Below are positions 55,416 through 58,763 of a stretch of DNA of 64,000 bases, in pieces; within the stretch, counting starts at the first letter, position 1; each line of letters begins with the position of its first letter. Made by a program: the position numbers and the translations under genes. The notes under the pieces are model-generated. The model ran no database searches. It saw only the letters and a program-made list of their open reading frames with translations, and was not told where the DNA came from. The DNA is taken from the NCBI RefSeq assembly GCF_024505085.1, contig NZ_JANIBC010000001.1:372001-436000 (forward strand), given 5' to 3'. The DNA comes from Parvularcula maris. Its GTDB lineage: Bacteria > Pseudomonadota > Alphaproteobacteria > Caulobacterales > Parvularculaceae.

Positions 55416-57416
55416 CTAGCGGCGGTAGGAGTAGGGTCCCTCGCTGGCGAGGTTCCCTGCAGCGTCCTGACCCTCGAAGTAGAAGCTGTAGGTCGTCCCG
55501 CAGGAGCCGTTGAAGGTCACGGAGTGCGACGTCTTCAGCGTGTTGTCGGAGTAGGTATAGTTGTAGTCCGGGAACCGCACCTGGCTCGTCGCAGGCTCGT
55601 TGGAGTTCCAGGTCAGCCTGAAGCGGCAGGAGGAGAGCCTGCGTGCCCCGAAGTTGGAAAGATCCGGGGGCGTCGTGTCGGTGTTGCCGCCACCTCCGCC
55701 GCCGCCGCAGGTGGAGGGCAGGGCGTAGCTCGGCGAGGCGCTTCGCGAACCCATGGAGGAGCCAACCCCCATGCCGAACTCGGCAAAGGCTTCCCAGACC
55801 AGACAGTCCTTCGCGCCGCCGACGGCGTCGAGGATGCCGTCCCGCATGTCCATGTAGTCAGGGCCCGGCGCGGTGAAGTTCATGCCGTCCACGAGGTCGC
55901 CCATGAGCTGGTCCGCGGTGTAACCGTTGGCCTCGTAGAGAGCCTTCAGCCTCCAGATGGTCGCGGCGTAGATCTCGCCGTCGCGGTGCACGGAGGTGCC
56001 GGTGAAGTCGCCGATATCCTTCGGGTAGTTCGTGTACCTGGCCGAGCGGATACCGTTCGGGTTCGCCGCGCTGTACTCGCCGACGCGGTCGTCATTGTTG
56101 ATGAGGATCGACAGCACGTCCGCCATGCCCTCGCCGATGGCGCCCGAGATCGAGCCCGACATGTTGCCGATCATCCGCCAGGTGAGACCGTGGCCGTACT
56201 CGTGGTAGACGATGTCGCTGTCGAGGTCCCCGTCGCGATAGGGGTTCGTCAGGTTCCAGATATACATCTGCATGCGCGGGTTCGAGCCGTCGCCGGGGGT
56301 GGCGAAGTTGGCGTTGTTGAACCCGCCGCCGTCCTGCGCCTCGGCGTTGACGCTGTCCGAGCCGAAACCGCCCTTGCCGAAATTGTTCTCCTGGAAGTTG
56401 CCCGCGCTCTCGGTGAAGCCGTGGGTGTAGAGAATGTCGTGGATGCGGTTGTTCAGGTAGAAGAGGTTCTGGATCGCCACATACTGGTTCGATGTGGTCG
56501 AGGGGTCCTGGTTCAGGCTCGCCGCCGTGGTGAACACACCGTTGGTCACCGCGCCGCTGGAGGTGTCGGGCGCGTTATTGTTGTTCCGGTCGAGATAGGC
56601 TGAGACGTTGTTGCCGCGGATATAGTTCCTGTACTGCGTGCCGGAGAAGAGCCAGCCGTTGGGCGACTGTGCGTTGCCCGAGCCTGGGCCGTTGACGACC
56701 ACCTGGTTGCTGTTGCCCGGATGATCGGGGAAAATCGCGTACTGATCGCGCGAGGTCCTGTCCTCGACGTTCAGCACCCGGCCGTTCGGCCCGATGAGCG
56801 TATGGAACAGCTCGTTGCTGTCCGCGCTCCAAAGCTTCACTTCGTAGCCGATGACGTTGCGGCCACGGCGAGCGATGACGACCTCCTCGACCTCGGGGGC
56901 CTGGTAGTAGAAGTCGTTCTCGGCGAAGGTGGTGACGAAGCCTTCGGTCGACGCCGCGGAGACGTCGGGAGCCGCGGGGAAGTGCCGCTGACGCGCGATC
57001 TCCAGGGCGTCGACCGCGCTGATACCTGCGCGGCGGGCCTTGCCGTTCCTGCGGTCACGCAGGCGGTTGCGCAGCTTTTTGAGGTCACCGTCCTCACCGA
57101 AGTTCGCCGTCACCGATGCGCCGTAGACCCGGCGGCCATCCACCACCTGCTCGAAGCGCTGGTGCACCCGGCCCTTGCCGTCCCTGTGCTCGCGGACGAG
57201 CACGAGTTCGGCGTCCTGGCCGATATCGCCGCGCTTTCTGAGAGCACCGCGTACCCGCTCGGCCCTGCTGCCGCGAAGAGAGGAGGCGTTCAGCTCCTCC
57301 GCGGTGACGACCGTGGGTTTCGTATCGAGAAGAATGTCCTGCTCCTGCGCGTGGGCAGCAGCGGTGGAGACGGCAAGGATCGCCGCCCCGCTGAGGAGGC
57401 GTTTTTGAAGGTTCAT
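55416..57416 (-). CDS. Secreted M36 family (fungalysin-like) metalloprotease
   Basis: This 666-residue protein has a signal peptide (MNLQKRLLSGAAILAVSTAAAHA). The propeptide region of about 25-220 contains an FTP-like stretch (VHQRFEQVVDGRRVYGASVTANFGEDGDL). The M36 catalytic domain has DIVYHEYGHG (HEYGH 405-409) and the third ligand Glu429 in GEGMAD. A Gly-rich linker (about 586-592, GGGGGGG) precedes a C-terminal fibronectin/CBM-like beta domain (TSQVRFPDYNYTYSDNTLKTSHSV). It is likely secreted, activated by propeptide removal, and degrades protein. The ATG at 57416 is chosen because the 17 residues before it are not signal-like. The 338 bases upstream hold only its promoter region and the rpsU terminator. 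Confidence 0.9.
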   Translation of the reverse strand: MNLQKRLLSGAAILAVSTAAAHAQEQDILLDTKPTVVTAEELNASSLRGSRAERVRGALRKRGDIGQDAELVLVREHRDGKGRVHQRFEQVVDGRRVYGASVTANFGEDGDLKKLRNRLRDRRNGKARRAGISAVDALEIARQRHFPAAPDVSAASTEGFVTTFAENDFYYQAPEVEEVVIARRGRNVIGYEVKLWSADSNELFHTLIGPNGRVLNVEDRTSRDQYAIFPDHPGNSNQVVVNGPGSGNAQSPNGWLFSGTQYRNYIRGNNVSAYLDRNNNNAPDTSSGAVTNGVFTTAASLNQDPSTTSNQYVAIQNLFYLNNRIHDILYTHGFTESAGNFQENNFGKGGFGSDSVNAEAQDGGGFNNANFATPGDGSNPRMQMYIWNLTNPYRDGDLDSDIVYHEYGHGLTWRMIGNMSGSISGAIGEGMADVLSILINNDDRVGEYSAANPNGIRSARYTNYPKDIGDFTGTSVHRDGEIYAATIWRLKALYEANGYTADQLMGDLVDGMNFTAPGPDYMDMRDGILDAVGGAKDCLVWEAFAEFGMGVGSSMGSRSASPSYALPSTCGGGGGGGNTDTTPPDLSNFGARRLSSCRFRLTWNSNEPATSQVRFPDYNYTYSDNTLKTSHSVTFNGSCGTTYSFYFEGQDAAGNLASEGPYSYRR

Positions 57417-57686
57417 GCTGTTCTGTCCCTGATGGCGACGCGGAAACGGGGGGATTGCGCCAACCAAGAGCAGAAGCTGTCAGAGTTGCGGGCTCGTAAG
57501 CAAGCGGAATGTCAGCGGATATTATCCGCAAACGGTTAAAACAGATCACGCCAATGCGGCAAAATGGCGTGGAACCAAACCGCGGTTCCTTACAAACCGT
57601 AACATTCTGCAACGTGCTGTGTTAGGCGGTTTGCCTTAGGTTAAGATACGCGCTGTGGTTGCGCCGAGCGCCGAGGAGCCTGACGC

Positions 57687-57722
57687 AGCAAAAAGCCGCC
57701 TCGGCGGGGCCGGGCGGCTTAT
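57687..57722 (-). terminator. Rho-independent terminator of rpsU
   Basis: On the minus strand AAGCCGCC...GGCGGCTTTTTG: 8-bp stem (57693-57700 with 57713-57720) followed by a T run, 34 bases after the rpsU stop. Confidence 0.85.
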
Positions 57723-57754
57723 TAGGGTCGTGTGAAAGCTGCCGGGGCGGCTGG

Positions 57755-57964
57755 TTAGGCCAGCCCCTCGCGCTGCATCTTCTTCCGCTGCAGCTTGCGG
57801 GCCCGGCGCACGGCTTCGGCCTTCTGACGAGCGCGCTTCTCGGAAGGCTTCTCGTAGAACTTGCGGGCTTTCATCTCACGGAAGGTCCCCTCGCGCTGCA
57901 TCTTCTTTTTCAGCGCGCGCAGGGCCTGTTCGACATTGTTGTCGCGGACGACGATGTTAACGAT
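57755..57964 (-). CDS. rpsU: 30S ribosomal protein S21 with apparent AUC start codon
   Basis: This 69-residue protein reads (M)[68 protein letters not shown], here described as a standard S21: [17 protein letters not shown] and [10 protein letters not shown] are invariant marks. An in-frame TGA lies five codons before VN, and no ATG, GTG or TTG occurs between it and the conserved body. GGAG eight bases upstream points exactly to ATC at 57962-57964 as the initiator. S21 helps 16S rRNA bind mRNA leaders. It is divergent from coq9, a conserved alphaproteobacterial arrangement. The missing canonical start makes automatic gene finders likely to skip it. Confidence 0.9.
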
Positions 57965-58064
57965 GGGTCTAACTCCTCAAAGGTGGCAGCTTTCGCGAAG
58001 GGTAGCGCCATAGTGGCGAATGGCGCTCTTGTCGAGGCTTTGCGGTACGGAATAGAGCATTGTC

Positions 58065-58763
58065 ATGGACCAATCCCAAGCTGAGCCGAGAGACCCCGAA
58101 GAGCAGCGCCGCGAAGTGCTGGAGATGCTGCTGAGCGAGGCGGCCTTCGACGGCTTCACCGAGACCACGCTGAAGCGCGCCGCACGCCAGGCGGGGCTGG
58201 AGGAGAAGGCGCTGGCCGACGGTCTTCTCCACCGCCTCTTCCCCCGAGGCGTGCAGGACGCGCTGGCCTTCTGGTCCGAGGAGGAGGACCGGCGCATGGC
58301 GGAGAGCTTTAAGGCGCTGGAAGCCACGCCCCACGGGGTCACCGACAAGATCAGGTGGCTCATCAAGGACCGGATCGAGGGGCTCGACTGGAACCGCGAG
58401 GCGGCTAGGCGCGCAGCCTCCACCCTGGCGCTGCCTCAACACGCCGGGACCGGGGCGAAGCTCGTCTGGCAGACCGCGGATAAGATGTGGCGGACCATCG
58501 GCGACACCAGCACCGACTTCAACTGGTACACCAAGCGCACGAGCCTGTCGGTGATCTACGGCGCGACCCTCTCCCACTGGTTCCAGAACGACGGCGATGC
58601 CGCCGCGGACGATCCCTATGCCGAGACCTGGGCGTTCCTGGACCGGCGGCTGTCGGACCTGATGAAGTTCGAGAAGGCCAAGGGGAAGGCGATCAAGGCT
58701 GCGCCAGACCCCGCTGGCATCGTAGGATTTCTGGGGCGTTTGCGCTACGGCTCGGGCAAATAA
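58065..58763 (+). CDS. coq9: COQ9 family ubiquinone biosynthesis protein
   Basis: This 232-residue protein has a TetR-like helical fold. REVLEMLLSEAAFDGFTETTLKRAARQAGLEEKALADGLLHRLFPRGVQDALAFW at the N-terminus and WQTADKMWRTIGDTSTDFNWYTKRTSLSVIYGATLSHWFQ are COQ9 signatures. COQ9 binds lipid and presents ubiquinone intermediates to Coq7-type hydroxylases at the membrane. It is divergent from rpsU with a 100-base gap. A serine hydrolase gene follows 26 bases downstream and may be co-transcribed. Confidence 0.95.
   Translation: MDQSQAEPRDPEEQRREVLEMLLSEAAFDGFTETTLKRAARQAGLEEKALADGLLHRLFPRGVQDALAFWSEEEDRRMAESFKALEATPHGVTDKIRWLIKDRIEGLDWNREAARRAASTLALPQHAGTGAKLVWQTADKMWRTIGDTSTDFNWYTKRTSLSVIYGATLSHWFQNDGDAAADDPYAETWAFLDRRLSDLMKFEKAKGKAIKAAPDPAGIVGFLGRLRYGSGK

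Follow-up and report, generated by a model that had tools for sequence, protein, structure and literature searches.

An apparent AUC start codon of rpsU in Parvularcula maris and the scarcity of ATG at this position in Alphaproteobacteria

The rpsU gene of Parvularcula maris, which codes for the ribosomal protein bS21, has ATC at the position of its start codon. A weak codon at this position is conserved among its relatives, and ATG is scarce at the start of rpsU throughout the alphaproteobacterial genomes that were read. From the comparison of these sequences we infer that rpsU is probably translated from AUC, and that a weak start is held there by selection and throttles the synthesis of bS21. 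The weak codon of the relatives suggests that the cells hold their bS21 output back.

The rpsU locus

The gene is located on the minus strand of the window, by which we mean the whole stretch of 64,000 nucleotides that was analysed (positions 372,001 to 436,000 of contig NZ_JANIBC010000001.1). Its parts and its divergent neighbour are the following:

57755..57964, minus strand: rpsU (bS21) with apparent ATC start, 69 codons plus TAA; profiles match, and the coding pattern runs from codon 2
57962..57964, minus strand: putative ATC start codon of rpsU, from direct reading and relatives
57973..57976, minus strand: Shine-Dalgarno core GGAG, 8 bases before ATC; the relatives are G-rich at codons -5 to -4
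57977..57979, minus strand: in-frame TGA closing the rpsU frame upstream, from direct reading
57757-57755, minus strand: rpsU stop codon TAA
57690..57718, minus strand: probable intrinsic terminator of rpsU, GCCGCC ... GGCGGC followed by T5, inferred by direct reading
58065..58763, plus strand: COQ9 family gene, divergent neighbour of rpsU (PF08511; TIGR02396 'diverge_rpsU', E 3.8e-37)

Direct reading of the minus strand gives TGA GGA GTT AGA CCC ATC GTT AAC ATC GTC GTC CGC GAC AAC AAT... for the 5' region of rpsU. Between the in-frame TGA, five codons upstream, and the conserved body of the gene there is no ATG, GTG or TTG. The original prediction had described exactly this arrangement, an ATC at the start position behind a TGA with GGAG eight bases before it, and direct reading confirmed it in all points. 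The gene had also been judged to be intact and unlikely to be a pseudogene. This is borne out by the profile searches, in which the bS21 families PF01165 (73.4 bits, cut-off 27, E 1.2e-20) and TIGR00030 (71.5 bits, cut-off 28.95, E 3.6e-20) matched, and by a coding signature that runs from codon 2 in 25 genomes of the family. The first in-frame ATG of rpsU in the window is codon 22, which lies within the conserved body; a list of open reading frames with ATG, GTG or TTG starts therefore contains just a 48-residue fragment of the gene that begins at this codon. Gene finders that use these three codons only can overlook rpsU of this group or predict it too short.

The name 'diverge_rpsU' of the family that matches the COQ9 neighbour is taken by us to mean a position divergent to rpsU. 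Downstream of rpsU, at 55416-57467 of the minus strand, a fungalysin-type M36 metallopeptidase with an FTP propeptide is encoded. A match to the RcsR1 sRNA of Rfam covers the end of rpsU and the terminator (57689-57781, minus strand). Its score in the window is 29.1 bits, where the gathering score is 60, and one of eight rpsU loci searched (L002) gave 32.2 bits; we discarded RcsR1 as a chance match on the terminator. Folding of four rpsU leaders gave z values of -0.49 to -1.12, and nothing unusual was seen in their structure.

Start codons of rpsU in relatives and across the class

The gene was present in all 41 genomes that were searched (the own genome and relatives). The relatives sample, with members of the genus, the family and the order, comprises 40 loci (L001-L030 and L220-L229); the 41st genome, G026, was read in the class sample as L124 and has CTG. 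Codon 1 is ATC in all ten genus genomes drawn, so that a sequencing error at the ATC of the window is excluded. The original prediction had proposed to compare the 5' codon of rpsU among relatives, and neither ATG nor GTG stands at this position in any of 25 family genomes, which have ATC (15), TTG (5) or CTG (5). The middle T of codon 1 is invariant in these genomes and the outer bases covary (A with C, C or T with G); the codon is thus always exactly one mismatch away from AUG and never two. With no in-frame AUG, GUG or UUG before the body of the gene in the window and with non-AUG codons in the relatives, rpsU has two features of genes with a conserved near-cognate start.

The mean pairwise difference among the 25 family genomes is 0.068, 0.040 and 0.446 for positions 1, 2 and 3 of codons 2-21, and 0.74 at each position of codons -20 to -7. 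Such a pattern is characteristic of a frame that codes for protein from codon 2 onward, and codon 1 would then be the start. The whole relatives sample is in agreement with this assignment: codon 1 is ATC in 23, CTG in 11, TTG in five and ATG in one of the 40 loci, so that 39 have a non-AUG codon. Codon 2 is GTT, GTA or GTC in all 40 and GTG in none. An in-frame ATG, GTG or TTG within 12 codons upstream was found in ten of the 34 loci of this sample with ATC, ATA, CTG or ATT as codon 1, and in five of 20 such loci of the class sample; several of these upstream codons are located within the Shine-Dalgarno site or next to it.

The search of the class covered 153 genomes and gave a match in 147, of which 120 were read with one locus each; the 27 that were left out have mostly the lowest-scoring and most divergent S21 proteins. 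By a simple rule, the start of rpsU in the 120 genomes is GTG in 62, ATG in 18, TTG in 17, ATC in 11, CTG in four, ATA in four and ATT in one, with three uncalled. Eighteen ATG codons are thus opposed to 99 other start codons, and GTG or TTG accounts for 79 of the 120 genomes. The presence of ATG in 18 genomes means that a weak start of rpsU is not indispensable.

Two registers can be distinguished in the class sample. In the first one, codon 2 is ATG, GTG or TTG (88 loci: GTG 60, ATG 15, TTG 13), and codon 1 is hardly restricted. It is a start or near-cognate codon, defined as ATG, GTG, TTG, CTG, ATC, ATA or ATT, in only four of the 88, in which both codons are thus possible starts. In the second register, codon 2 is none of the three (32 loci), and 29 of these loci have a start or near-cognate codon as codon 1. 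The three exceptions are L216, with ATG one codon further up, L236, with TTG at the same place, and L238, which has none. With 29 of 32 against four of 88 loci, start codons at codon 1 appear to be more frequent than expected by chance. In two loci of divergent class genomes, L234 and L239, two consecutive near-cognate codons are found where rpsU starts (ATT ATT and ATC ATA, respectively).

A similar division is seen among the named loci, which are the best 80 of 527 matches. Twelve of them (L031-L042) fall into the family group by sequence and start with TTG (6), ATC (3) or CTG (3); among these, L031 of Parvularcula oceani JLT2013 is a 96% match. The other 68 belong to other Alphaproteobacteria, mainly relatives of Rhizobium, Bosea, Microvirga and Bartonella; here the start is located one codon later and is GTG in 64, TTG in four and ATG in none. 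In six Bartonella loci (L066, L067, L071, L079, L081 and L110) the GTG of rpsU is immediately preceded by ATC or ATA, which in turn directly follows an in-frame stop codon; the start is therefore ambiguous between two weak codons in these six.

Control genes, Shine-Dalgarno sites and other taxa

For comparison, the S10-spc-alpha cluster was analysed in 20 genomes; its 23 genes, which code for 21 ribosomal proteins, SecY and Adk, amount to 460 cases. The cluster was located via S3 (PF00189), and the other genes were named from their translations and their order. Only three of the 460 cases are without ATG, GTG or TTG near the start; all three are rpsE, and we take their N-terminus to be misplaced. 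ATG is present near the start in 430 cases and missing in 30, of which 16 are rpsM. In the same 20 genomes rpsU is without ATG, GTG or TTG in seven and without ATG in 19. Among the 23 control genes, rpsM (uS13) alone is without ATG near the start in most genomes (16 of 20). Its start is GTG in 14 and TTG in three of the 20 alphaproteobacterial genomes (L270-L289), according to an alignment in which the start columns of rplE, rplR, rpsJ and rplX are misaligned. As start codons GTG and TTG are nothing unusual, and their use by rpsM in 17 of 20 genomes has to be counted against a special status of rpsU.

The possibility that a strong Shine-Dalgarno site compensates for the weak start was rejected, as no consistent extreme was found in 20 genomes. 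In the window, the rpsU site has a pairing energy of -8.1 kcal/mol and takes rank 15 among the 24 genes of this genome that were compared. The mean over the 20 genomes is -10.3 kcal/mol for rpsU versus -8.3 kcal/mol for the controls, whose starts were chosen by rule; the median rank of rpsU is 6.5, and rank 1 was reached in three of the 20 genomes.

A search of the phylum covered 120 genomes. Twenty-five of the 30 best loci are from outside the class, and ATG is present in all 25. Twenty further loci from outside the class, chosen from the other matches, have ATG (8), GTG (10) or, at the homologous position, TTG (2), and both TTG loci have another possible start a few codons upstream. The ten GTG loci (L342, L344-L347, L352-L355 and L359) code for an alpha-like S21 (D/ENNVDQAIRVLKKKM.REGMFREMK); the first two codons are GTG AGG in nine of them and GTG CGC in one. 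They may perhaps represent a sister lineage that has the weak rpsU start in common with the class. Strictly speaking, scarcity of ATG is thus no class trait, and the division into ATG and GTG outside the class indicates that, in the loci read, it follows the alpha-type bS21 and not the phylum.

In a quick tree of 20 genomes, based on a concatenation of 18 proteins (SecY and 17 ribosomal proteins), there are at least ten changes of the rpsU start codon and at least four changes of the AUN state. None of the 20 was scored as ATG, where G066 (TTG GTG) was scored as GTG; in G157, an ATG is present in frame ten codons before the ATC. ATC or ATA is found in the order of the window's genome and also in a clade apart from it (G157, G125, G052 and G072; support 87).

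Phage-borne S21 genes were read in four of eight phage records; these are few and mixed and were kept out of the evidence. HTVC008M has ATG, Melnitz-3 probably has ATG (the record is annotated from further upstream), Mosig probably has TTG and one unverified scaffold has GTG. Of four viral contigs, the three other than L367 have the same N-terminus and start with ATG.

Possible functions of a weak rpsU start

If AUC is the start codon of rpsU, the fMet-tRNA would pair with two of its three bases, assisted by the GGAG of the Shine-Dalgarno site. A codon with one mismatch to AUG (GUG, UUG, CUG, AUC or AUA) would be functional, yet would initiate below the full rate, and selection would maintain this weakness. 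Throttled initiation on the short, stand-alone rpsU, which we regard as the most likely role of the weak codon, would keep bS21 at or under the supply of 30S subunits and would let it track the conditions of initiation. In genomes with AUC, AUA or CUG, the synthesis of bS21 would in addition depend on IF3 and run parallel to that of infC.

The infC gene of E. coli has a start of the AUU/AUA/AUC type and is autoregulated through IF3. The original prediction had proposed an IF3-sensitive control for rpsU, too. The apparent infC start in the window's genome (L290, G000:C2:118000-119200), assigned by homology, is also ATC (GGAGACCGCCCC-ATC / GAAGGAGACCGCCCC-ATC), with GGAG eight bases before it, much as in rpsU, and with an ATG at codon 6. 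Counted from the IF3 domain, codon -13 to -19 is ATA (30), ATC (12) or ATT (3) in 45 of 50 infC loci; in 13 of these 45 an ATG, GTG or TTG is present within 19 codons as well. The infC start of Staphylococcus aureus is AUA (passages of PMC13009471). According to PMC4611024, AUG, GUG and UUG are exempt from discrimination by IF3, and other triplets including AUU, AUC and AUA are subject to it. From such established work, the apparent AUC start of rpsU is likely to be sensitive to IF3.

An alternative function would be an IF3 switch of the infC type, in which AUC is rejected by IF3 and bS21 is produced when there is little free IF3 in relation to the 30S subunits; the supply of both bS21 and IF3 would thereby be coupled to new 30S subunits. 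We regard this as possible but rather doubtful, and it overlaps with throttling. The rpsU gene of the window has the AUN start of infC-type genes and shares with infC the near-cognate codon beside a Shine-Dalgarno site and a product that binds to the 30S subunit. It differs in that its product is a ribosomal protein and not a factor that reads start codons, and in that relatives have CTG or TTG instead of ATC. The part of the original prediction that stood is the AUN codon in an intact gene, and an infC that apparently starts with ATC is in line with it; IF3-sensitive control itself is not established, and a codon discriminated by IF3 is not kept across the family, in which five of the 25 genomes have TTG and another five CTG. 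As GUG and UUG are reported not to be discriminated by IF3, such a sensor would have to be lost or gained several times. Since TTG occurs within the family, and since 79 of the 120 class genomes have GTG or TTG, the function that is conserved cannot be IF3 sensing. Relatives exchange ATC for TTG, which IF3 reportedly does not reject; the conserved property is accordingly weakness as such.

A second alternative, which we consider unlikely, is autoregulation. Ribosomes whose 30S subunits lack bS21 would be less strict on start codons, would translate an rpsU with a weak start better and would thereby refill the bS21 pool; the weak start would be a sensor of bS21-free ribosomes, and selection would keep the codon exactly one mismatch off AUG, with its identity drifting among GUG, UUG, CUG, AUC and AUA. 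Autoregulation of bS21 by ribosomes that lack it is reported for Flavobacterium johnsoniae, where an extended Shine-Dalgarno site of rpsU serves as the signal (passages of PMC9976891), and in Alphaproteobacteria rpsU would again be the carrier of an unusual translation-initiation signal. The difference is that the start codon is the unusual element here: the Shine-Dalgarno site is ordinary in the window's genome, without the exceptional strength of the Flavobacterium type, and it is not exceptional by its median rank in the 20 genomes either. Throttling and the sensing of bS21 shortage are readings that would cover all rpsU codons seen.

Neutral drift, by which any start with one mismatch suffices beside a decent Shine-Dalgarno site, appears improbable. 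The frequent changes among weak codons in the tree would be expected from drift. However, ATG, which predominates in the controls and could be reached by a single substitution from any of the codons observed, is absent from all 25 family members and from all 68 named loci outside the family group (among the best 80 of 527 matches). The force of this objection is limited by the 18 class genomes in which ATG does occur. That rpsU starts elsewhere, at an upstream codon hidden by an error or internally at codon 22 (ATG in all 25 family members), or that the gene is broken, can be dismissed in view of the strong protein-level selection on codons 2-21, of the TGA that no start codon separates from the body of the gene in the window, and of the ATC in all ten genus genomes read.

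Other conserved near-cognate starts that lower initiation are those of ccpN (AUA) and cvfC1 (AUU) of S. aureus (passages of PMC13009471). In contrast to rpsU, these genes code for a metabolic repressor and a small protein, have extended Shine-Dalgarno sites and do not include a ribosomal protein gene. Closer in product is rpsT (bS20) of enterobacteria, likewise a gene for an abundant 30S protein with a weak start codon; this start is UUG, not AUC, and was proposed to be relevant to control, while alphaproteobacterial rpsT uses AUG (passages of PMC10931766). The same source states that the regulation of rpsU in E. coli is still unknown. Among the mapped coding sequences of Caulobacter crescentus, 0.7% start with CTG and 0.25% with other near-cognate codons (passages of PMC4117421); by word counts, the main text of that article has no mention of rpsU or S21. 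Our literature search, largely limited to papers available without subscription and without bioRxiv preprints, found no AUC-type or class-wide weak rpsU start in Alphaproteobacteria. Near-cognate starts (infC, ccpN, cvfC1) and the UUG of rpsT are thus known, and we found no report of the AUC-type and class-wide weak start of rpsU described here.

The class-wide tendency of rpsU towards one-mismatch starts reaches AUC and AUA in separate lineages and points to start-codon strength as a possible control point.
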